41,364 bases of DNA, taken from the NCBI GenBank assembly GCA_016764895.1, contig JAESRA010000013.1, positions 1-41,364 on the forward strand, written 5' to 3'. The stretch is from Phycisphaerales bacterium (lineage in GTDB: Bacteria; Planctomycetota; Phycisphaerae; Phycisphaerales; UBA1924). Positions 8,508-41,292 of the stretch are shown piece after piece. The position numbers were made by a program, and so were the translations under genes. The notes under the pieces were generated by a model, which did not search any database, was not told where the DNA came from, and saw only the letters and a list, made by a program, of their open reading frames with translations. Position 1 is the stretch's first letter. Every line of letters begins with the position of its first letter.

Positions 8508-9125
8508 ATGTCAGAACGGTATCAAGCTATTTTGCTCTTTGGAGCACCCGGAGCAGGCAAAGGCACCCAAGGTCTCTTGCTCGGGAATATCCCCGGCTTC
8601 TTTCACATGTCCACAGGTGATATGTTCCGAACACTCGATCACAACTCAGAGATCGGGCAACTGTTTGATCAATACTCTGCACGGGGCGAACTTGTCCCCG
8701 ATGAAGTCACCATCAAGATGTGGTCTGAATATGTCCACGCGCAAACTGTTCTGAGCTTGTACAAACCAAAGCAAGACCTGCTGTGCCTCGATGGCATCCC
8801 GCGGACCGTTGCCCAGGCTCATTCGATCAAAGAACATATTGATGTGCGGGGGATCATCCATCTGGTAGCACCGAATCCAGAAGAAATGGTGATGCGTTTG
8901 CAAAGACGGGCGATCGAACAAAAACGCGTCGATGACGCGAAGATCGATGTCATCCGCAATCGACTCGATATCTACGAGCGTGAAACACGCCCGGTGCTGG
9001 ATCAGTTTGATCCAAACTTGATCCATGAGGTCAATGCGATTGGGACACCCGCTGAGGTGCTTGGCGGGATACTTCGTGTGCTGGCGCCGATTCAGGCTAC
9101 GGCCCATACGACGGTTCCCAACTAA
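8508..9125 (+). CDS. adk: Adenylate kinase / nucleoside monophosphate kinase family (short LID)
   Basis: LLFGAPGAGKGTQ P-loop, MSTGDMFR, LCLDGIPRT, RVDDAKIDVIRNRLDIYERETRPVL. Confidence 0.85.
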   Translation: MSERYQAILLFGAPGAGKGTQGLLLGNIPGFFHMSTGDMFRTLDHNSEIGQLFDQYSARGELVPDEVTIKMWSEYVHAQTVLSLYKPKQDLLCLDGIPRTVAQAHSIKEHIDVRGIIHLVAPNPEEMVMRLQRRAIEQKRVDDAKIDVIRNRLDIYERETRPVLDQFDPNLIHEVNAIGTPAEVLGGILRVLAPIQATAHTTVPN

Positions 9126-9154
9126 ACTAAGCCTGAGGGCTTATGTATTTATTG

Positions 9155-9224
9155 GTAGAACGGGCTTCCAACCCGTTTTTTTATTTTCCGTTTGGAGAAG
9201 AAACGGGCTGGAAGCCCGTTCTAC
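9155..9224. repeat. REP/BIME-like nested inverted repeat (24-bp arms, 23/24 match)
   Basis: GTAGAACGGGCTTCCAACCCGTTT (9155-9178) versus AAACGGGCTGGAAGCCCGTTCTAC (9201-9224); each arm is also palindromic (AACGGG...CCCGTT). Confidence 0.9.
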
Positions 9225-9252
9225 TGGGAGACAGTGAGCCGTCAGGCATGAC

Positions 9253-10593
9253 CTATGGCTTTGGCTTGTAGTCATCGATGGTTTGTGGTGTATTCATTAC
9301 ATCGACCGAGAGGATCTGGGTTACGCCATTGCCTATATCTGGAGTGGTTTTGATTCCGTAGAGCCCGGGAAAGCCGTAGGCTTTGTAGTTGACTGGTGGG
9401 TGAAAGTAGTATGACACAGGGATGACATTGTGCAGGTAGTCGTGTGTGCCGAAGTAGTCCCAGTTTTGCTCGTACACATTTGCCCCTCGCCCGTTGTCTC
9501 TGAGCCGATCGAGATCGATGGGGATCCAGAGTATTTGATCTCGGGCTTTGTCGTAGAGTGCGAATTCGACAATCACGATGATGCGTTCGTCGAGTGTGAT
9601 TTTAATTGAGTTGTCATAGCACACAACCGTTCTTGCGGGCACGCCTGCGGTTCTGAGTACGGCAGTGAGCAGCATGGACATATCGAGCATCGAGGAACCG
9701 GCGGGGTCAAGGGCTACCTGATCTGCTGAGCGTACATTGAACCCGGACCATGATGAGAGCGGGGATGATGAGAAGCCGTTTACGAATGAGCGAATTGCTC
9801 CGATATGAAGCGTTGGTGCCAGTTGTGATTGGCCTCGCTCAACACGGACATAATCGAGTACCTTTCCGGTGAGATATTTGGTCAATGTGACTTGGCTGAT
9901 GGATTTGGGATCATTGCCTTCGGTCCATTGGTCAACGAGCCGGACGAGTTGGTCTTGCCCTTCGGGGTCGATGGGGTCGCTGATGCGATCGATGGTTGGG
10001 GTTAGAAACAGCGTTGCTTCTTCTGGCCAAGTTTGAGGCCAGGGGATTTCTTTGGCGAGTTTTTCATCAAATACGGTGTCGGCGGTCACGATGTGGGAGA
10101 CCTGGGAGAAATACAGATGCCGTGTTCTTGTGTCGCGTTGGTTTGATCGCCACCAGACATACTTGGCGTGCGAATCTGGAGTTTGGAGTATTTCGGGTTC
10201 GGGTGTGTATTGGACATTGTCAATCCGGAGGACTGTTTGGATGTCTTCGTTTGGAGACCAGTAGAACCCGCCTTGGCGGACGATTGGATAGATGTATTCA
10301 AAGTCTTGAATATCCCAGGTCGCGGAGAGTTCTTCTCGAAACCCTGAGTTGTTTCTGTAGTAAATGCCGGCCTGGAGGATGACCTGAGACCTGAGATCCC
10401 ACCGCCAGGCATTCGCATGGCGGAAGTAAGGATTTGATTTCATTGGCGAGACAGCATCAGGATGCGACATGGTCTGAGCGTTGGCGTGCTGCTGACTCAT
10501 AAAACCAGTCGAGGCAATCAATACTGAAATGAAACGCGTGAAAGTTGTTGTTGGCATAATGGTCCCTTCGGTCTGTTGAGCCGGTCTGTTCAA
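9253..10593 (-). CDS. Secreted transglutaminase-like fold protein, probable non-canonical active site
   Basis: Signal-peptide-like MPTTTFTRFISVLIASTGFMSQQHANAQ (internal start near 10557); SSMLDMSMLLTAVLRTAGVPARTVVCYD ... IVEFALYDKARDQILWIPIDLDRL resembles the transglutaminase core. Confidence 0.65.
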   Translation of the reverse strand: MNRPAQQTEGTIMPTTTFTRFISVLIASTGFMSQQHANAQTMSHPDAVSPMKSNPYFRHANAWRWDLRSQVILQAGIYYRNNSGFREELSATWDIQDFEYIYPIVRQGGFYWSPNEDIQTVLRIDNVQYTPEPEILQTPDSHAKYVWWRSNQRDTRTRHLYFSQVSHIVTADTVFDEKLAKEIPWPQTWPEEATLFLTPTIDRISDPIDPEGQDQLVRLVDQWTEGNDPKSISQVTLTKYLTGKVLDYVRVERGQSQLAPTLHIGAIRSFVNGFSSSPLSSWSGFNVRSADQVALDPAGSSMLDMSMLLTAVLRTAGVPARTVVCYDNSIKITLDERIIVIVEFALYDKARDQILWIPIDLDRLRDNGRGANVYEQNWDYFGTHDYLHNVIPVSYYFHPPVNYKAYGFPGLYGIKTTPDIGNGVTQILSVDVMNTPQTIDDYKPKP

Positions 10594-12150: not shown

Positions 12151-12420
12151 CGCTGTCGGCGGCCGCCGGCTTTGATTTCCAAAGTCAATTGCGGAACCAG
12201 AGCCCAGTAACCAACGAATAGGAAGCGGCTGCGTGGAGTTCTCCCCTGATGCTCCTGATCGCATAGCGATTGTGGCCTGCTCGACGAGTGGATTGATCCA
12301 CAATTCAAGCAAGAGAATCATGCAATAACTCGCCTACGAGGCTGATTATGCGATATGATGGTGACAACACATAAACCCTCACACACGATGAACCGTGATA
12401 GTCAATAATTGGAGCATTTC

Positions 12421-15400
12421 ATGCGATCTGAAAAGAGTCGATCCACCCTTTCCCGTCCTGTAGCGACCGCCATGATATTTTTGGCGAGTGGTTTGGCGTG
12501 TTCGCTGGCGATGGCCGAGCCTGCTGCTCAGGCTGGGCAACTTGAGAGCGTGCAGGTCAAAGGCCGTGCTGTTCAATCTGTGCAGATTGACAATCTTGAG
12601 GCGGCTACTTCCAAAGGCACTGTGATCAGTGCCAATGGCGTGGTGACTGCGTATTTTTTCAATAAGGATGTTGTCGTCCAGGCAACGGATTGGTCGGCTG
12701 TGCAAGCTGTGATCGGTGGGATGCCTGGCGTGACATTTGGGCGGGCACTTGGCAATCGTGGTCGATTCCATGTGATCGAGACCCCGAGTGTTGGCGTAGC
12801 CTTTGAGGTGCAGAAGGCACTGAGCGGGATTGATGGGGTGATGAGTGTTCAAGTTGACTCCGGGCCGACCAAGAGTGGTCGACAGGGCGAGTTGATGAAC
12901 ACCATGATCGCTAGCCGGGCGATTGCTGCGAGCAATGCAGCATACATGAATGCCAAGGCCAATATCGGGGTTATTCCGGTGGATTCGGGTTCGGATCCGG
13001 CGTCCATCCCTTTATCACAATGGCACTTCTCTAACACCGCTGGTGGGCCTGGGAGCCATGCGAATCCTACTCGCAGTCATGACAACAATATTCTTGAGTC
13101 GATTTACAGCACCGACATGCTCACGGGAACTGGGGTAGTTGTGGGGCTTTCCTCAATCGCTTACAATGTCCACCTTGATGTCAATCACATCGAACTGGTC
13201 AGCCCGACTCGAGACGGCGGCTACCGGGAGGATCTTTCACAACCATTCGATCCCAATCTCACGCTTGATGACGATCCAATCACCGGATTTGCTGGCATTA
13301 TCGCTGCTGAGAGAACCGAGCCACCGGTTGCCAACGATCTCCAGGGTGTCTCGCCGGGCGCGGGTGTCGCGACCATGTTCCGCGGCCCAACCCCTCTGTT
13401 TGAATCGCAGGCGTACGAGTGGAACTGGAACGAGATCGACATCAAAGTCCATGAAATATCCGGCGAATATGATGTGCCGGGTGCTATGTATAACCGGAAT
13501 CGACAGAATGAGTATGTCAGCGATTCGTTTAAAAATTCAATACGGTTTGGGCGAGGCAGACTGGGCACAATCCATATCTTTGGAACGGGCGTGGGCTTCA
13601 ATCTGCTTCCAGACCCATACCGGGATTACACCGATGGTGGCACCGGACCGACCAGTCAGCTATGGGATGTGATTGGGTTGAACCCCAACAAGGTTGGTGT
13701 AAGTCAGTCCAATAGATATTTGACACAAACAGAGGGGGCTGCAGGACCACTACCGGATTTTGCAACTACACCTTTATTCAGAAACTTTTTTCTGCCCCAC
13801 ATTGAACAGTTCTATGTTGGGGGCCAGACTCATCAGTTCCCGCTGGCCAATGATCGCACTTCACTGATTATCCAAACGGTCTCTGAAGATGGCAACAGCA
13901 ACTCACTCGGGGCAATCGGGCCAGGCGTTTTTGCCTCATTCTTTGCCGGGTCATCAAATGATCTTTTCTCATTTGACCAGAGCATCTCTGGGCGAGGAAT
14001 CATGACGATCTCAGGAGAGGGCGACCCTGACAACCCCCTCCCTGCTGAGCCGGGCCCAGGCTTCCTCGCCTCAGCACAGGGATTCTCCGGCGATATGACC
14101 GGTGCCTCGGTGGCGGCCGGGGTTATTGCCCTGATGCTTGAAGCCAATCCGGGTCTGAGAATCCGTGATATTCAGCATATCTTCTTTGAATCGATTCAAG
14201 AAAGCACAAAAATCAGTGCCGTCAAATGGCCAAACTTTGAAAGCCAACGCAACTACTATGGATTCTTTGCTGATCCCAGGGCCGACATTGGGGCTTCATT
14301 AAACGCTTCATTCTGGCAGCTCAACACCGCATTCTACAATAATCCTGACGCGGTGCCACCAGTTGTCAATCAAACGATCCGCCACTCCGATCAGTACGGA
14401 TTTGGTGTTGTCGATGCAAATCTCGCCATTCAAAAAGCCAGGACATGGACTGGTCTGCCTCAGCTTGTTCTTCTGGATTCTGGAATCGTTGGCGATATCA
14501 ATGATGACCAGCAGACGCCAAATCCCGATGATCTGCGGGTGCCGTTCGAAATTGAAGACGCGGAGTGGGATGTCATCATTGATGCCGAGGAAGAAGCCGG
14601 AGACCCGGACCCTACTCCAACCGACGGCGTGAGTATCGATGGGAGTGCCGGTATGATATTCTTTACTGGAGCAGGTTTTTCAATCTGTATCCGTCAAAAT
14701 ATTCTGATTGAAAGCATTGTGCTCGAACTGACCATTGAAGGCGAAGGCAGCAATGATCTGTATATTGAACTTCAAAGCCCGACAGGGACCCGATCAACCC
14801 TGGCATTGCCAACAACACTCAACCCCACAGGGATGTCTCCTGAGACCGATGCCGTCGATCCTCCCGATGAAGGCTTTAACTCGGGCAGATACAACGACAC
14901 CGATTATGCGTACTACCAACACCCATTCCTGACACACAAGTACTGGGGCGAACTCTCAGGCGGTCGCTGGCAGGTCAGGTTTGTCGACCTTGGCCCAGAC
15001 ATCATCAACCCAGAGGGTGTTGAGCCCGGTCCTGCTTCAGTAGTCAATCCGGCAATCTTTCCAAATCCCGGTGCCGATATGATTATTGATCTCGGCGAAA
15101 TCGGGATTCCAGGCGATGCAACCCGATCGGGAAAGACCGTCGTGGCATTCCGCCTCAAAGTCTATGGCACTGAGATTGGTGTTCAACCATTCTTGGGCTG
15201 TCCTCCTGGTGAGACATCATGCCCTGGAGACCTGAACGGTGACGGACGGATTGATCTTACTGATCTTCATCTTTTCTTAGCCTGGTACACGGCAGGTGAT
15301 GCCAGAGCTGACCTGACTGGGGATGGCAATATTGACTTCTCTGATATCCAAGCATACCTTGGCCTGTTCCAGCCGGGGTTCTGTACAACGGGCGATTCGC

Positions 15401-15474
15401 CGTTTACTGGCGGGCGTCCAATCCCAGGGGGCCAAACCCCTTCGGACAACAACCCACCAACCCGTCCAATCTGA
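12421..15474 (+). CDS. Secreted S8/kexin-like protein with P-domain and C-terminal dockerin; likely degenerate catalytic centre
   Basis: Signal peptide; kexin-like DP...QWHF entry, GTGVVVGL, GFAGIIAAE, TGASVAAGVIALMLEANPGLRIRDIQHI; P-domain (IESIVLELTIEGEGSNDLYIELQSPTGTRSTL...GGRWQVRFVD); dockerin DLNGDGRIDLTDLHLFLAWY...DLTGDGNIDFSDIQAYLGLF. Confidence 0.8.
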   Translation: MRSEKSRSTLSRPVATAMIFLASGLACSLAMAEPAAQAGQLESVQVKGRAVQSVQIDNLEAATSKGTVISANGVVTAYFFNKDVVVQATDWSAVQAVIGGMPGVTFGRALGNRGRFHVIETPSVGVAFEVQKALSGIDGVMSVQVDSGPTKSGRQGELMNTMIASRAIAASNAAYMNAKANIGVIPVDSGSDPASIPLSQWHFSNTAGGPGSHANPTRSHDNNILESIYSTDMLTGTGVVVGLSSIAYNVHLDVNHIELVSPTRDGGYREDLSQPFDPNLTLDDDPITGFAGIIAAERTEPPVANDLQGVSPGAGVATMFRGPTPLFESQAYEWNWNEIDIKVHEISGEYDVPGAMYNRNRQNEYVSDSFKNSIRFGRGRLGTIHIFGTGVGFNLLPDPYRDYTDGGTGPTSQLWDVIGLNPNKVGVSQSNRYLTQTEGAAGPLPDFATTPLFRNFFLPHIEQFYVGGQTHQFPLANDRTSLIIQTVSEDGNSNSLGAIGPGVFASFFAGSSNDLFSFDQSISGRGIMTISGEGDPDNPLPAEPGPGFLASAQGFSGDMTGASVAAGVIALMLEANPGLRIRDIQHIFFESIQESTKISAVKWPNFESQRNYYGFFADPRADIGASLNASFWQLNTAFYNNPDAVPPVVNQTIRHSDQYGFGVVDANLAIQKARTWTGLPQLVLLDSGIVGDINDDQQTPNPDDLRVPFEIEDAEWDVIIDAEEEAGDPDPTPTDGVSIDGSAGMIFFTGAGFSICIRQNILIESIVLELTIEGEGSNDLYIELQSPTGTRSTLALPTTLNPTGMSPETDAVDPPDEGFNSGRYNDTDYAYYQHPFLTHKYWGELSGGRWQVRFVDLGPDIINPEGVEPGPASVVNPAIFPNPGADMIIDLGEIGIPGDATRSGKTVVAFRLKVYGTEIGVQPFLGCPPGETSCPGDLNGDGRIDLTDLHLFLAWYTAGDARADLTGDGNIDFSDIQAYLGLFQPGFCTTGDSPFTGGRPIPGGQTPSDNNPPTRPI

Positions 15475-15509: not shown

Positions 15510-15540
15510 CAGCGTGCTCGATTGGCACGCTGTTTTTTTA
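15510..15540 (+). terminator. Rho-independent terminator of the kexin-like gene
   Basis: CAGCGTGC-TCGATTG-GCACGCTG followed by TTTTTTT. Confidence 0.92.
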
Positions 15541-15620
15541 TGCCTCCAGCACCACTCACCACCGATGACAGATCGTAGAGAACGATTCGGCCTATAGGGG
15601 TTGTGCCTGATGGCTCTGAA

Positions 15621-15734
15621 GGGTGCCCCGCTGGTGGATTCTTATCCACCTGCGGGTCTTGGTGGTACAAAAAACATCTGGCGGTCAAAGACCCGAAGGT
15701 GGCACCCCCCAAAAAGCCCACCATCGGGGCACCC
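15621..15734. repeat. Structured intergenic repeat element, copy 1
   Basis: 10-bp perfect terminal inverted repeats GGGTGCCCCG/CGGGGCACCC; internal hairpin CCCGC-T-GGTGGAT-TCTT-ATCCACC-T-GCGGG; aligns with copy at 39992-40102. Confidence 0.85.
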
Positions 15735-15793
15735 AGAGAAGAAAACTTGGAGTCGTCAGACACGGCCTAGATGTCGATCAGTGCTGGGCGATG

Positions 15794-15829
15794 TAAAAGC
15801 GGCTCCGATGTTTCAACATCGGAGCCGCT
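15794..15829 (-). terminator. Long perfect hairpin, probable terminator of the minus-strand endonuclease gene
   Basis: AGCGGCTCCGATGT-TTCA-ACATCGGAGCCGCT (14-bp perfect stem); short T-tract on the minus strand (AAAA 15795-15798 on plus). Confidence 0.7.
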
Positions 15830-15891: not shown

Positions 15892-17619
15892 TTATGGGCA
15901 TCCTGTCGTGAATGCACTGAGGAATGCTGAGATATCGAAGAAGTCAAAGACCATGTCGCCATTCATGTCGGCTGCTGGGTCTTGCGAGCTGAAGGCCGAG
16001 AGGAATGCGGAGATATCGAAGAAGTCGAGCACTCCGAATGGGGCTGCGAAATCTGCTGCTCCACAGGTTGCGCCGGTGACTTCGCCGATCAGGTTGACGA
16101 TCAGGTCATCGCCTGAGGCGGCCGTACCAAAGAGTGATTCATCGTTGACCGCTTTGAAGGTATAGGTCGCGGCAAATGCCCCGAAAGCCGCGTCTGAGAG
16201 GGTTGCTTGGATGGTTTGGCTGGACTGGGCTGGGATTGATGTGACCGATGAGAAGTCTGTGGTCAACTCGGCGGTGTCGCCAACGGAAGAGATGAACTGG
16301 ACATCCATTGGGGCGCCGGTTGTCAGTTCTGCGATGTTGAAGAACTCGATGTTCTGCAGGGCATCTCCGGTCCCCAGAGCGATGATGCCCAGGTCGATGG
16401 TGATTTCATGGAGATTGCTGCCCGATGCCAGTGAGCCGTCTGATGGGTTGAAGATGTTGATTTGGATGGTGACGATGTCATCGCCGTCGTTGTCGCCGTT
16501 GCCGGCTCCGCCTTGGGTGGTGACATCGAGGTTGTCGATGACGACTTGCTCTACGCTGATCGAAGCGGTGTCAGTTGCCCCCGCTGGCAATGAGATGTTA
16601 AACTGGCTTGAATCGTTGGGTGTGTTCATCGGGAAGGCGTTTGGGTTGCCCCAGACGGAGGTTTCGATGCCTGCTGATGGTGTGACTGTGTAGTAGGTTC
16701 CGTCGCTGCCGTCTTTGTTGATGGTGATGGGGACTGAGCCGAGCGAGTCGCCTACGAGGGCGTTGAACTCGACGGTCATTGCTGAGGAGCCGTCGGCGTT
16801 TGATGCTCCGCCGACCCAGAGGGTGGAGTCGTTGCTTTGGTCAACATAGATGGACCAGACGAACTCTGGGTGATCTACGAATGCGTTTCGGTTGTTGGTA
16901 TAGAAGAATGGGTTGTAGGCGACATCGGACACGGCATGGTTCCGTCGGCGTTCAAAGGTGTCTGGGGCGTCGAGGTAGTGCCATGCGAGCAGGGCGTTGA
17001 GATCACCCATTTGGTTGCCTGAGGGGAATCCGTTGACCAGTGAGAGCCCAAGTGAGGTCCAGCGGGTGTCGGAATAGAAGAGGCTGCGGGCGATGTCGCC
17101 TTTGTCTACATCGCCTGGGAAGTAGTATGTCCCTAGGTTTCCGAAGGAGCCTGTTGTTGAGGCCGTGCCGAATGGTTTGTTGCTTCTTGAGGAGTTAATT
17201 GAGGGGTTGCAGGGGCGGAGTGCGTGTGGATCGCCCAGATTGCTACGGGAGGAGTTTGAGGCGCTGCCGGGCTGCCTGGACTGTGGCCAGACATGTTCAC
17301 GGTTCCATGTGGAGCCTTGATCCCAGACCGCTGAAACTGATGCTCCGTTGTAGACCAAGAGGATATTTCCGATTACATTGGGGTCTTCATCGATTTGTCG
17401 TGACATCACGCGGTAATCGCCATAGGCCCGTTGGATATGCCCTGAGGACATGGCGCTGGTGAGTTGGGATTTGAGGGTTGATCCTGTGCCTGTTGCGCCG
17501 TTGTAGTAGTTTGCGGGCGGATCGAACGGATCGGCTGCGATGGTTGTGCCTGCTGTTGCCAGCAAGAGAAGTATGGTGCACGAGAAAGGACTGGAACTGG
17601 TGACTTTGAATGGTTTCAT
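15892..17619 (-). CDS. Secreted endonuclease I family protein with C-terminal GC-type dockerin-like anchor
   Basis: Signal peptide MKPFKVTSSSPFSCTILLLLATAGTTIAA; STWNREHVWPQS, NLGDPHALRPCNPSINSSRSNKPF, DVDKGDIARSLFY; tail CGAADFAAPFGVLDFFDISAFLSAFSSQDPAADMNGDMVFDFFDISAFLSAFTTGCP. ORF extends to 17943 but start at 17619 is preferred. Confidence 0.88.
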   Translation of the reverse strand: MKPFKVTSSSPFSCTILLLLATAGTTIAADPFDPPANYYNGATGTGSTLKSQLTSAMSSGHIQRAYGDYRVMSRQIDEDPNVIGNILLVYNGASVSAVWDQGSTWNREHVWPQSRQPGSASNSSRSNLGDPHALRPCNPSINSSRSNKPFGTASTTGSFGNLGTYYFPGDVDKGDIARSLFYSDTRWTSLGLSLVNGFPSGNQMGDLNALLAWHYLDAPDTFERRRNHAVSDVAYNPFFYTNNRNAFVDHPEFVWSIYVDQSNDSTLWVGGASNADGSSAMTVEFNALVGDSLGSVPITINKDGSDGTYYTVTPSAGIETSVWGNPNAFPMNTPNDSSQFNISLPAGATDTASISVEQVVIDNLDVTTQGGAGNGDNDGDDIVTIQINIFNPSDGSLASGSNLHEITIDLGIIALGTGDALQNIEFFNIAELTTGAPMDVQFISSVGDTAELTTDFSSVTSIPAQSSQTIQATLSDAAFGAFAATYTFKAVNDESLFGTAASGDDLIVNLIGEVTGATCGAADFAAPFGVLDFFDISAFLSAFSSQDPAADMNGDMVFDFFDISAFLSAFTTGCP

Positions 17620-17919
17620 ACGAATAACTCTCCGCAGTACAGATCGGATGGTTCCGACTGTGTGTTCTGGTCTATGTGTTGAAAGCGAATAGGCAAATGC
17701 CAAATGCCTGTTAGGATACGACTGACCGAACCAGCATACACGACAAACGGCTTTGTTCATCGGAATTAGTCTGGTTTTCTGGCGAATTTTGGCGTTATCG
17801 GGATGCGTCAGGTCTGGCATTTGATCCAGTAAATTAGTAGCACAACACCCATTTGAGTATTTGTACTTGATGTATTTGTATCCGTGTGCGATGCCCAACA
17901 TTCCCCTACTATGGTGTTC

Positions 17920-20850
17920 ATGAATACTGGATGCACACGACATTTTTTAGGTTGGGATCAACCTGCACTCGATAGCGCGGCTCAATGGATTTTTGATCGC
18001 TTCGTCCAGAACTCTGAACTGGATTTGAGTGATGTACATTTGGTGCTTCCCGGCCGAAGGGCTGCCCGGACATTGCTTGGGAATCTTGTGGACCTTTGCG
18101 AGAGCCAAGGCATCGTACTGATCCCTCCGATAACCATGACCCCACTGGAAATTCCAGCGGCGACTATTGGTAGGGCTAGTGAGATCGAAGGTATGGGCGG
18201 GCTTGGCCGGCACGCCTCCAAACTTTCTCGGAAACTCGCTTGGATTCAGGCATTGCAAGACTGTGACCCCAGCATGCTTGCTGAAATTCTTCCGGCCCCG
18301 CCAGAAACCCAGGACCTTGGGCATTGGATTGGGATCGGCGGGTGGATAGCGGGGGTCAGCGATGAACTCTGTGATGCAGGCTTGCGGATGAGCGAGGTTG
18401 CGACTCGTGGGATTCAGATACTTGATGAATCTGAAACGGTCCGATGGGATGCACTTGGCGAAATCCAGAACTCGTATGAACAGATACTGGCTGGGCTCGG
18501 GGTCGTTGATGATCGCTTGGTGACGCTGGACCATGTCTTTCATGATGATGAAACCGTTCGTAGTGGACGCCGATTTATTTGTATCGGCATGCCCGAACTC
18601 GGTTCAACGGCACGGGGCGCGATCGAGCGCGCAGAATGCGAAGTTGATTCGTTGGTCTTTGCGCCTGAATCATTGGCAGAGCGGTTTGATGAGTTTGGAT
18701 GCGTAGTGACGGATCAATGGATCAGGGCGAGCTTGGAAATTGATGAAGGCCGCATCGTCTTTGAAGAGAGCCCTGCGAGCATGTGTGAGCGAGCGATGAC
18801 GCGGCTCGCTCTGCATGGGAGTCGATCAGGAGCTGATGCTTTGGATACTTCTTCATGCGTCATCGGGCTGGCGGATGAATCGTTGATCGGGCCGCTCCGG
18901 CAAATCGCTAGCATGGGCGGGCCCAAACTGGGTATTGAGATTCACGCGCCGATCGGGCGGAGCGCATTGAGCACGCCTCCTGGACAGCTTGTCGAGTTGA
19001 TCCAGGCGTATCTGGGTAATCCGTCGTTTGACACGCTCGCCTTGCTTGCCCGCCATCCTGATATGGAACTTGCTTTGACTGCTGGGCACGCTGAATCTGA
19101 TTCTGATGCACCAAAGCCCAAGGCGTGGTGGCTCACATCGCTTGATCTGATCCGCCAGAATCATGTACTGACCAGCAGCACGGTTGTCCCCAATGGAACC
19201 AAAGCGTCACTAGCCAAAGATGCTGAGTTTGTGGTGCAAACCGTTGCCCAACTCCTTGGGCCGTTGATTCCAAGCCCCGGCGCGGATCTTCCACTTGATG
19301 ATTGGGCTGGCAAACTTTCAAAGACGCTTGAACTGATCTATCTTGATATTGAGCTTGATATCCAATCCGAACATGACCGCTCGACGATCGAGGGGCTTGG
19401 ATCGATCCGTGCGGTTCTTGATGAGATCAGTGATGCCAAGTTGCTTGGGCAGTGCATGCCTGTGACATCGGCGCATACTGCGGTTGCATTGATTTTGGAT
19501 CGGCTTGGCGAAACGATGCTTGCAGAGCCGCTCAATCGTGACGCGATTGAGGCCGTTGGATGGCTCGAACTCCCGCTTGATCCTTCGCCATTGTGTGTGG
19601 TTGTTGGGATGAGCGAGTCATGTGTCCCCGGATCAATAACTCACGATCCGCTCCTTCCGGGTTCGCTTCGTGATGCGCTTGGGATGACCACCAACGAGGA
19701 TCGCTTGGCCCGCGACACTTTCTTGATGGCATCGATTCATGCGTCAAGGGATGCGGTCTTTATGTGCGCTAGGAACGGCGAAAAAAATGATCCCGTCACA
19801 CCCAGTCGCCTTCTTTTACGGGTGTCTGGCGAATCTTTAGCCAAACGCGTCGGGCGGTTTGTTGATCCTTCAGAGGACTGTCCTTCATTGCACTCTTTGG
19901 CGATGGACGCCAAACCTGGGAAGGTCGATCGGTTCAAATCCACACTCCGGGTCTGCGAAGATTTTGTTGTACCGGTATCAATGCGTGTGACGGATTTTGA
20001 TACTTTTCTGAGATCGCCAGCACAATGGTATCTGGAGCGACACTTGGGGCTCGGCGAGATTGACATTGATATACGAGAACTCGGCCCCGCTCAGTTGGGC
20101 ACGCTCATCCATTCGATACTCGATTCATTCGGCAAGGATCCAGCGATGCGGGACCTTGATGATCCTGATGCGATCAATGCTGCCCTTTTACATTTGCTGG
20201 ACCAAGAGACCGTTTCTCAGTATGGGACAAAGCCTGCCGCTGCTGTTATTGTGCAGACCCGGCTCCTTCATTATCGGCTTGGGTGGTTTGCAACTCAGCA
20301 GTCGCAACGAAGACGCGACGGCTGGGCTATCGCCTACACAGAATGGTCGCCCGACAAAGCTGCGCCGCCTTCGATTTTGGTTGATGGCGATCCGATGGAG
20401 TTGCGTGGAAAGATCGACCGGATCGACAGACATGAGGACGGCCGGCTTGCGATAATTGACTACAAAACAGGTAGAATCGTCGATGCTCGCAAGGCTCACC
20501 AGACCAAGGATGCTTGGACGAAGCTTCAACTTCCGCTCTATCGTTTTCTGGTGCGGCAACTTGCCAGCGACCAGGAGATTGTTCTTGGGTATGCGGGTCT
20601 TCCAGCAAATGCAGGTGAAGATGTCTGGCAGTTTGCTGATTGGGATCAGGACGAGCTGAAATCTGCCGACGAGGCCGCGTGTGATGTTGTTCGGAATATC
20701 CGTAAGATGTCAGCCGGGGACAAGGTCGAGATGGGCGATTCTCCGCCGGACAATGGGATTCTCGGATTTTTGACTGGACAACGATTCGATACCGGCGGGA
20801 ACCAATGGATACACGAAGAAGAATCCACCGAGGCGGAGGTGGGCGTATGA
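17920..20850 (+). CDS. addB: AddB-like protein: inactivated helicase-like region plus C-terminal PD-(D/E)XK nuclease
   Basis: LRGKIDRIDRHEDGRLAIIDYKTG nuclease motif; N-terminal LVLPGRRAARTL in place of Walker A; ATGA overlap with addA-like gene; start could be 17911 or 17884. Confidence 0.78.
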   Translation: MNTGCTRHFLGWDQPALDSAAQWIFDRFVQNSELDLSDVHLVLPGRRAARTLLGNLVDLCESQGIVLIPPITMTPLEIPAATIGRASEIEGMGGLGRHASKLSRKLAWIQALQDCDPSMLAEILPAPPETQDLGHWIGIGGWIAGVSDELCDAGLRMSEVATRGIQILDESETVRWDALGEIQNSYEQILAGLGVVDDRLVTLDHVFHDDETVRSGRRFICIGMPELGSTARGAIERAECEVDSLVFAPESLAERFDEFGCVVTDQWIRASLEIDEGRIVFEESPASMCERAMTRLALHGSRSGADALDTSSCVIGLADESLIGPLRQIASMGGPKLGIEIHAPIGRSALSTPPGQLVELIQAYLGNPSFDTLALLARHPDMELALTAGHAESDSDAPKPKAWWLTSLDLIRQNHVLTSSTVVPNGTKASLAKDAEFVVQTVAQLLGPLIPSPGADLPLDDWAGKLSKTLELIYLDIELDIQSEHDRSTIEGLGSIRAVLDEISDAKLLGQCMPVTSAHTAVALILDRLGETMLAEPLNRDAIEAVGWLELPLDPSPLCVVVGMSESCVPGSITHDPLLPGSLRDALGMTTNEDRLARDTFLMASIHASRDAVFMCARNGEKNDPVTPSRLLLRVSGESLAKRVGRFVDPSEDCPSLHSLAMDAKPGKVDRFKSTLRVCEDFVVPVSMRVTDFDTFLRSPAQWYLERHLGLGEIDIDIRELGPAQLGTLIHSILDSFGKDPAMRDLDDPDAINAALLHLLDQETVSQYGTKPAAAVIVQTRLLHYRLGWFATQQSQRRRDGWAIAYTEWSPDKAAPPSILVDGDPMELRGKIDRIDRHEDGRLAIIDYKTGRIVDARKAHQTKDAWTKLQLPLYRFLVRQLASDQEIVLGYAGLPANAGEDVWQFADWDQDELKSADEAACDVVRNIRKMSAGDKVEMGDSPPDNGILGFLTGQRFDTGGNQWIHEEESTEAEVGV

Positions 20851-39328: not shown

Positions 39329-39404
39329 CTGCATCCCCTTGCAACAATCGATGCCGCGCCGGCCTCAACTGAGGCAGGCAACCATGTTTTTTCTTGCCCA
39401 ACCC

Positions 39405-39446
39405 ACCCGCTCGGCGTCCACCTTGGCGCCGAGCGGGTATTCTTTT
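39405..39446 (+). terminator. Hairpin terminator between the hypothetical gene and ogt
   Basis: ACCCGCTCGGCG-TCCACCTTGG-CGCCGAGCGGGT (12 bp) followed by ATTCTTTT; ends just before the ogt ATG. Confidence 0.8.
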
Positions 39447-39449
39447 GAT

Positions 39450-39980
39450 ATGAAACTCATCGAACGCACCATCCAAACCTCCCTCTGCCCCTTACGAGCC
39501 GCCACCACTGATCGTGGCATCTGCCTTTTGGAAATGGGATCACCAGATCGATCCAACCGGGAGCAGCGTGAACTTGAAGCGGCCTTCGATACGACCATGA
39601 CCGAGGGCAACCACCCGCTCCTGGATCAACTCGAATCAGAACTCGACGGCTACTTCAAAGGCCAACTCACCACATTCACCGTACCCCTCGATACACCCGC
39701 CACCGAGTGGCAACGCAAAGTCTGGGACGCCCTGATCCAAATCCCCTACGGCGAAACAACTTCTTATGGCCAACTCGCCGCCCGGCTCGACAACCCAGGC
39801 GGAGCGCGAGCCGTCGGACTTGCCAACGGTCAGAATCGGGTAAGCATCATTATTCCCTGCCATCGCGTCATCGCCGCCGACGGCACACTCCACGGCTACG
39901 GCGGAGGACTCGACCGCAAACGCTGGCTCCTGGATCACGAAACCGCCAACTCCGGCAGCGGACTCTTCGCGACTCAATAA
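39450..39980 (+). CDS. ogt: Methylated-DNA--protein-cysteine S-methyltransferase
   Basis: VWDALIQIPYGETTSYGQLAARL, GANGQNRVSIIIPCHRVIAADGTLHGYGGGLDRKRWLL-type active site (IIPCHRVI). Confidence 0.94.
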   Translation: MKLIERTIQTSLCPLRAATTDRGICLLEMGSPDRSNREQRELEAAFDTTMTEGNHPLLDQLESELDGYFKGQLTTFTVPLDTPATEWQRKVWDALIQIPYGETTSYGQLAARLDNPGGARAVGLANGQNRVSIIIPCHRVIAADGTLHGYGGGLDRKRWLLDHETANSGSGLFATQ

Positions 39981-39991
39981 ATCAACTCTCC

Positions 39992-40102
39992 GGGTGCCCC
40001 GACGGAGGATTCTTATCCTCCTTCGGGTCTTGCTTCGATTTTTGCTTCGGTTTTTGACCCACCGGAGACATGCAGATGGCAAAGCCCATCAGCATGGCAC
40101 CC
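39992..40102. repeat. Structured intergenic repeat element, copy 2
   Basis: GGGTGCC...GGCACCC ends; internal hairpin CCCGA-C-GGAGGAT-TCTT-ATCCTCC-T-TCGGG; shared AAAGCCCAnCnnCnnGGCACCCAGA right end with copy 1. Confidence 0.85.
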
Positions 40103-40107
40103 AGAAT

Positions 40108-41292
40108 TTACAATCCAATCCGCGACATCTCAATCGTGTCTTGAATCTCTACGGATTTGGGGCTGCCATGCTCGCGAAGGTACTCGATCACCGCTAAAAA
40201 CTCATCGCGGATTGGAGCGATGAACTTCATGGGTTCTTCGGTGATCGGATGTGAGAACTCTAAAAGAGCTGCGTGCAATGCTTGGCGATCGAGCATCGGC
40301 GTGGTGTCGGCGTTGAGGAATGGGCGGCCGCCGTACATGTCGTCGCCGACGATTGGGAAGCCTTGGTGGGCGAGGTGGACGCGGATTTGGTGTGTGCGTC
40401 CGGTTTTGAGATCGAGTTCGACGAGTGAATACCGCTGTGGCTGGAGGTGTTGCTTTGCGGGAGGCAGTTCGTATCGCTCGCGGACGCTGCAGATGGTCAC
40501 CGAGGGTTTGCCGAGTTCATCGTGACGAACGACCCGTTTTTCGCGGGCGCCTTTGGCTTTGGACTGGTGAGGCCCAAGCGGATAATCAATCACCTGATGA
40601 CTTGGTTCGACCCAGCCATGAACCAGGGCAAAGTATCGCTTGTTGACCTTGCGGTCTTGGAACTGCGTGCCGAGTTTCCAGTGGGCTTGGTCTGATTTGG
40701 CAAAGACGATGCAGCCGGAGGTGTTGCGGTCGAGTCGGTGGACTACGCCTGGGCGGGCGAAATCTTTGCCGACGCTTGAGAGTCCGCCGCCGGTGATATT
40801 TGCAAAGTGCCAGGCGAGGGCGTTGACCATTGTGCCGCGGTTTTCTGAGCGTGCCGGGTGAACGATGATGTCGGGGTCTTTGTTGAGGACGAGCATGTGG
40901 TCGTCTTCGAAAAGCACGGCGAGCGGGATTTCGTCGGGCTGAATCTCACTCGATGGCGGCTTGGGGATGACCAGTTCGATCCGGTCGCCTTCTTTGAGTT
41001 TGGTTGAGGATTTGGCGAGCTTGCCGTTGACTGTTGCTCCGCCATCGCTCATGAGTGTTTGAAGCTGGTTCCGGCTCATGAATGTGACGCGGGTGGTTAG
41101 GTATTTATCGAGCCGGGTACTCAGTGAGGCGCGTGAAATCTCGAAACAGACGCGGACGACAAAATCGTCGTCGCCATTTTCTCGCGCGTGTTGATAGGCT
41201 GCTCTGACCGCGTCGGGATCGACCTTCCCGCCTGGCAGGATCAGGTTCGGGAGGTTGGTTTCGGGCGATTGATTTTCGCCCGATTCACTCAC
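40108..41292 (-). CDS. RluD-family 23S rRNA pseudouridine synthase with N-terminal extension
   Basis: S4 domain RLDKYLTTRVTFMSRNQLQTLMSDGGATVNGK; RPGVVHRLDRNTSGCIVFAKSD; KTGRTHQIRVHLAHQGFPIVGDDMYGG; GTG start. Confidence 0.93.
   Translation of the reverse strand: MSESGENQSPETNLPNLILPGGKVDPDAVRAAYQHARENGDDDFVVRVCFEISRASLSTRLDKYLTTRVTFMSRNQLQTLMSDGGATVNGKLAKSSTKLKEGDRIELVIPKPPSSEIQPDEIPLAVLFEDDHMLVLNKDPDIIVHPARSENRGTMVNALAWHFANITGGGLSSVGKDFARPGVVHRLDRNTSGCIVFAKSDQAHWKLGTQFQDRKVNKRYFALVHGWVEPSHQVIDYPLGPHQSKAKGAREKRVVRHDELGKPSVTICSVRERYELPPAKQHLQPQRYSLVELDLKTGRTHQIRVHLAHQGFPIVGDDMYGGRPFLNADTTPMLDRQALHAALLEFSHPITEEPMKFIAPIRDEFLAVIEYLREHGSPKSVEIQDTIEMSRIGL

Follow-up and report, generated by a model that had tools for sequence, protein, structure and literature searches.

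The two copies of a structured intergenic element in the window, the 41,364-nt stretch of a Phycisphaerales genome (G000) analysed here, are very probably REPINs, that is, inverted doublets of facing REP units, and would be non-autonomous passengers of a RAYT/TnpA-REP transposase (Y1 HuH) encoded elsewhere in the genome. We base this reading on copy number, covariation, the geometry of the pairs, the flanking of RAYT genes by family units, empty sites in related genomes and a preference in the flanking dinucleotide. The system is new in sequence and in host, while its kind is already known. Coordinates of the copies, of their flanking genes and of other window features are positions within the window (Table 1).

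Two facing hairpin units in each copy

An earlier note, made from the sequence alone, had described copy 1 (15621-15734) as bounded by 10-bp perfect terminal inverted repeats (GGGTGCCCCG/CGGGGCACCC) with a nested hairpin inside, CCCGC-T-GGTGGAT-TCTT-ATCCACC-T-GCGGG, and a second copy, from 39992, with the hairpin CCCGA-C-GGAGGAT-TCTT-ATCCTCC-T-TCGGG. Both descriptions are confirmed, as are the two compensated base pairs that distinguish the hairpins (C-G to A-T; T-A to A-T) and the location of both copies between convergent genes, those beside copy 2 being identified by Pfam as methyltransferase and pseudouridine-synthase genes. The perfect terminal repeat of copy 2 is only 7 bp long (GGGTGCC/GGCACCC). 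What had been overlooked is the pairing: each copy consists of two hairpin units that face one another, and the second unit of copy 2 belongs to a diverged, CATG-footed subtype that is found again elsewhere in the genome. Both hairpins fold far better than shuffled sequences, with z-scores of -6.6 for copy 1 and -4.3 for copy 2.

Table 1. Coordinates of the units, arms and neighbouring genes of the two copies (window positions), and of a RAYT gene located on another contig
Feature	Position	Strand	Description
Copy 1 neighbours	12409-15474 / 15892-17943	+ / -	convergent
Outer left arm around copy 1	~15594-15616	+	degenerate: ATAGGGGTTGTGCCTGATGGCTC vs consensus CTAGGYCGTGTCTGACGGCTC
REP unit A, copy 1	15621..15661	+	GGGTGC tag side, bulged hairpin, TCTTG tail; R1 61.7 bits, E 1.6e-10 in window
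Spacer, copy 1	15662..15686	.	separates the two R1 matches
REP unit B, copy 1	15687..15734	-	faces unit A, apical loop enlarged; R1 37.6 bits, E 9e-6
Outer right arm around copy 1	~15750-15770	-	ends in CTAG; 20/21 letters as in arm consensus
Copy 2 neighbours	39339-39980 / 40108-41292	+ / -	convergent
REP unit A, copy 2	39992..40032	+	R1 67.7 bits, E 1e-11
REP unit B, copy 2	~40066-40102	-	diverged subtype, foot GGGTGCC-ATGC...GCAT; read from sequence
RAYT gene	G000:C214:9496-9948	-	NCBIfam NF047646, 99 bits (cut-off 80); HuH NHVH

A large repeat family with a covarying stem

The window copies are members of a large repeat family whose unit has the consensus GGGTG[GC]-CCCGA-C-GGAGnnn-TCTT-nnnCTCC-T-TCGGG-TCTTG. 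A degenerate pattern matched the own genome 75 times, compared to 3 matches with a reversed control, so the family pattern is not due to chance. Genome-wide counts were made with a covariance model (R1) built on the 41-nt unit and applied to the own 2.6-Mb genome (fragmented, 84% complete), 12 congeners and eight genomes of other genera. For the own genome this model gave a count of at least 143 units, so that the two copies noted earlier are far from alone, and it gave 2-54 units in eight of the 12 congeners (54 in G005, 42 in G007, 18 in G008, 16 in G001, 13 in G009, 9 in G004, 3 in G011 and 2 in G010); it found none in the congeners G002, G003, G006 and G012 and none in the eight genomes of other genera.

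Covariation, which the earlier note had read from two copies, is strong with more sequences. Six pairs of the stem show double-sided changes, with 43 double-changed cells vs 13.9 in shuffles and a covariation score of 0.380, reached by none of 500 shuffles, vs 0.088; shifting the pairing partner by one column destroyed the signal. The earlier suggestion of selection on structure is supported by these changes. The family also matches an already described one, at the level of kind: the hairpin (5 + 7 bp, one mismatch, 4-nt loop) has REP/REPIN architecture, all 21 closely spaced pairs among those listed by the model are in facing order, and their spacers are mostly 12 or about 24 nt, REPINs being doublets of preferred spacing. 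Units lie mostly between genes, as those of REPINs do, with 44 of 67 non-edge clusters intergenic according to a crude ORF caller; the other 23 overlap open frames that may be spurious, and all such context counts are rough. In three places of the own genome (C234, L083/L150; C249, L155; C30, L160) doublets crowd within about 1 kb, with one unit tandemly doubled at C249, an arrangement that resembles higher-order REPIN clusters.

The strong, compensated hairpin is also what might be expected of a structured RNA or riboregulator kept between genes, a role that the earlier note had proposed. However, an Rfam scan of the window at the gathering score returned 0 matches, units are found in either orientation as well as in facing doublets, and copies are scattered genome-wide, missing at orthologous sites in congeners and wholly missing from four congeners; we regard the probability of such a role as negligible. 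Hardly more credible is a bidirectional 3'-end, terminator or insulating element between convergent genes, also proposed at the time. Both window copies lie between convergent genes, as do 21 of the 44 clusters that could be resolved, compared to roughly a quarter of all gaps, so the association with convergent pairs stands as an enrichment; it is not general, since another 18 clusters lie between co-directional and 5 between divergent genes (23 of 44, from rough ORF calls). Moreover, the genes on either side of copy 1 are each followed by a separate hairpin of their own (15510-15539 and ~15800-15829, spotted by eye, the consensus scan having listed none), similar gene-end hairpins occur in G005, which is without the copy 1 element, and the units are not followed by a T-run. 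The convergent bias would rather arise because insertion is tolerated mostly at gene ends. A secondary, mRNA-stabilising effect of the units may nonetheless exist, as has been described for the REPs of E. coli.

Empty sites in related genomes

At both window sites the element is absent from G005. There is no element between the orthologous genes flanking the copy 2 site in G005 or G006, and the copy 2 flanks, joined without the 111-nt element, equal the G005 stretch in length (80/80 nt) with 54 of 80 positions identical. This would indicate that no target duplication accompanied copy 2, a reading taken from length, at 54/80 identity only. At the collinear copy 1 site of G005 the doublet is likewise absent, and a short CTAGTCGTGCCTGAT stretch is present that looks like half an outer arm. 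In principle a deletion might also leave an empty site; insertion is the direction that we infer.

RAYT genes and the route of mobilization

The own genome contains three PF01797/NF047646 genes. One of these, on contig C214 (Table 1), encodes a protein with the motifs MRRIND...NHVHLL...WQRGGG...YIHMNPV and is bracketed by inverted family units starting at 9401 (+) and 10021 (-). The minus unit at 10021 is the same in every letter as two dispersed units, and unit A of copy 2 shares 40 of 41 letters with it. Elsewhere in the genus, too, most RAYT genes have family units close by, with flanking similar to that at C214 in G001, G005 and G007. RAYT genes are present in all nine genomes with units and absent from three of the four without, which, as the genomes are related, is support rather than proof. 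Counting against the link, the congener G002 has a RAYT gene but no units, and neither of the remaining two RAYTs of the own genome, one at C153 and one inside valS, has bracketing units of this family. A PDB sequence search with the RAYT gave no match.

The valS case deserves separate mention. At G000:C70:1-3675 (L084) a single open frame of ~1200 aa reads as a valyl-tRNA synthetase (886 bits to NCBIfam valine--tRNA ligase) with a complete, in-frame RAYT domain in mid-protein (residues 412-546; 87.7 bits to REP_Tyr_transpos). Translated REPs, GRTGFQPV and NGLEARST, border this domain. Such a frame is also found at L207 (G010:C17) and L213 (G007:C52), the G007 site carrying a different RAYT and REP type (RGTGVPPV / HRRDACAT), and G015, G016, G019 and G020 have frames of like length with Y1_Tnp matches. 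A literature search returned nothing on a RAYT within a valyl-tRNA synthetase.

Two features of the unit depart at least partly from the published REP definition. The expected foot tag is GT[AG]G, but among 66 perfect-length units GTGC predominates (45, including both window copies) over the canonical GTGG (21, including both units at the borders of the C214 RAYT), and the basal stem has 4-5 bp, compared to 7 bp in the published search rule. Degenerate tags are tolerated by published REP families (PMC3733652). In un-armed units (those with no adjoining arm of the outer repeat described below), CC stands immediately 5' of GGGTG in 26 of 66, compared to a background of 9.4%. For another TnpA-REP, which cuts GTAC/GTGG substrates, a GTGG guide shifts cleavage to CC in vitro (PMC8266576). 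The match between this result and the CC preference seen here is suggestive; since most units carry GTGC, the rule may differ in this system.

Under the REPIN-RAYT reading, each unit would fold in single-stranded DNA, where the RAYT would recognize the GTG[GC] tag at the foot together with the bulged stem and cut beside a short dinucleotide, probably CC, just outside the tag. The doublet would then be copied or pasted elsewhere, mostly between genes. The C214 RAYT is the likely agent of this cleavage and movement. Among the roles that the earlier note had offered, mobilization through structure, in the manner of a MITE, was the right branch, given a family that is high in copy number, tied to RAYT genes and absent at orthologous sites, although its movement is deduced from these patterns.

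A CTAG-ended element around some doublets

A second inverted repeat, CTAG-GYCGTGTCTGACGGCTC..., surrounds many doublets, copy 1 but not copy 2 among them. Its arm consensus (Table 1) gave 41 matches in the own genome and 0 in the reversed control, and the arms are arranged as terminal inverted repeats. An arm lies directly upstream of 29 of 95 units (~30%), and the ~70% with no adjoining arm include copy 2 and the pair around the C214 RAYT. What the arms enclose varies. Of 33 distinct arm pairs, drawn from five genomes, 12 have a core of this family, 7 a core of type GTGG-CCCGGCTCGCCGAGCCGGG, 5 of GTAG-AACGGGCTTCCAGCCCGTT, 4 of GTGG-GATGGGCTTCCAGCCCGTC and 5 a core of some other hairpin type. 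The outer repeat holds at least five other REP-like doublet types besides this family. A search of the five genomes by exact matches found no empty outer palindromes (arms 0-30 nt apart). The window itself has a second, different REPIN at 9122-9256, a GTAG-tagged facing pair (GGTAGAACGGGCTTCCA...TGGAAGCCCGTTCTAC, ~9154-9224) between degenerate CTAG outer arms, the right one at 9236-9256.

One site shows what happens to the arms when the doublet is missing. At G000:C209 a composite reads CTAG-[~159 nt]-CTAG and measures 167 bp between the outer ends of its arms, and the same flanks in G005:C4 contain a single CTAG with arms and doublet both missing (GTGGCCAATGG-CTAG-TCCCTCAATT vs ...CTAG-TCCCCCAATT). 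The 163 bp missing from G005 thus comprise both arms, the doublet and one CTAG, which is what insertion of a single CTAG-duplicating block should leave. The composite around the copy 1 core, with its inverted repeat of ~17 bp and CTAG flanks, likewise appears to move as a block and to duplicate CTAG, the target-site duplication being seen at one precise empty site, that of C209 and not of copy 1 itself. At L281 (G007:C137:3300-3337) two arms stand back to back with one common CTAG (GAGCCGTCAGGCACGGCCTAGGTCCTGTCTGACGGCTC), as would be expected had one composite taken the terminal CTAG of another as its insertion site.

A 4-bp duplication of a CTAG-like sequence is reminiscent of IS5-type elements. 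This raises the question of whether the copies might be MITEs of the ordinary sort, related to a DDE (IS5-like) insertion sequence but non-autonomous, with the inverted repeats as their ends and the hairpins incidental. For enclosed copies the outer arms do act like terminal inverted repeats that duplicate CTAG, and arms of this kind surround copy 1; yet about 70% of units (all but 29 of 95), including copy 2 and the RAYT-bracketing pair, adjoin none, the link to a RAYT is one of the unit itself, no duplication is visible at copy 2, and none of the six DDE_Tnp_1 (PF01609) genes found in the genus is flanked by outer arms. We consider ordinary MITEs very unlikely. A search by PF01609 found no autonomous partner with arm ends in the fragmented, 84% complete genome. 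Arms are abundant (97 matches in all) in G000, G007 and G011 and few in G005 and G008, and the first three are exactly the three congeners with a DDE_Tnp_1 gene; this overlap may be a coincidence, or an autonomous partner may exist elsewhere.

Alongside the REPIN-RAYT reading of the doublets, we tentatively propose a two-layer element, which we hold to be a serious possibility though somewhat less than probable: a CTAG-duplicating carrier with ~17-bp terminal inverted repeats and interchangeable REPIN cores of many families, in which a RAYT could spread the core via single-stranded DNA, and another transposase, acting on double strands, would move the block as a whole. This second transposase is one that we infer for the outer element. 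Of all these results, it is the enclosing CTAG element and its interchangeable REPIN cores that a specialist would not expect.

Comparison with known systems

The elements resemble REPINs (Bertels & Rainey 2011, PMC3116915) in being inverted REP doublets of preferred spacing with compensatory stem changes, in their high copy number and mostly extragenic location, and in their link to a RAYT. They differ in sequence, in a GTG[GC] rather than GTAG tag, in their planctomycete host and in that part of the copies is locked within a second inverted repeat. TnpA-REP subclasses 2.2/2.4 have long, bulged REPs tagged with GT[AG]G (PMC6006769), with which the elements share the placing of a tag at the foot, the mismatch-interrupted stem, the short loop and the bracketing of a RAYT, whereas here the basal stem is 4-5 bp, the guide is mostly GTGC and the RAYT motif NHVH...YIHMNP fits no single listed subclass motif exactly. 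What is documented here is an abundant REPIN-RAYT system of Phycisphaerales in which the guide tag is non-canonical and is matched by a testable flank preference.

Outer palindromes are also known around the REP dimers A. variabilis GTAG-15, H. neapolitanus CGTC-1 and T. roseum GTAG-23 (PMC3733652), and in A. variabilis and H. neapolitanus, as here, no empty palindrome was found. In those cases each palindrome is reported to hold one REP family and was read as a target into which the dimer inserted (PMC3733652); here, at least six doublet types occur within one palindrome, and the empty site has a single CTAG with palindrome and doublet both missing. These observations bear on a point left open in the REP literature, namely whether REP dimers insert into the palindromes that surround them or travel with them; palindrome and dimer are both absent from the empty site described here. 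If the two-layer reading is true, REP dimers previously regarded as insertions into palindromic targets may be further examples of such an element.
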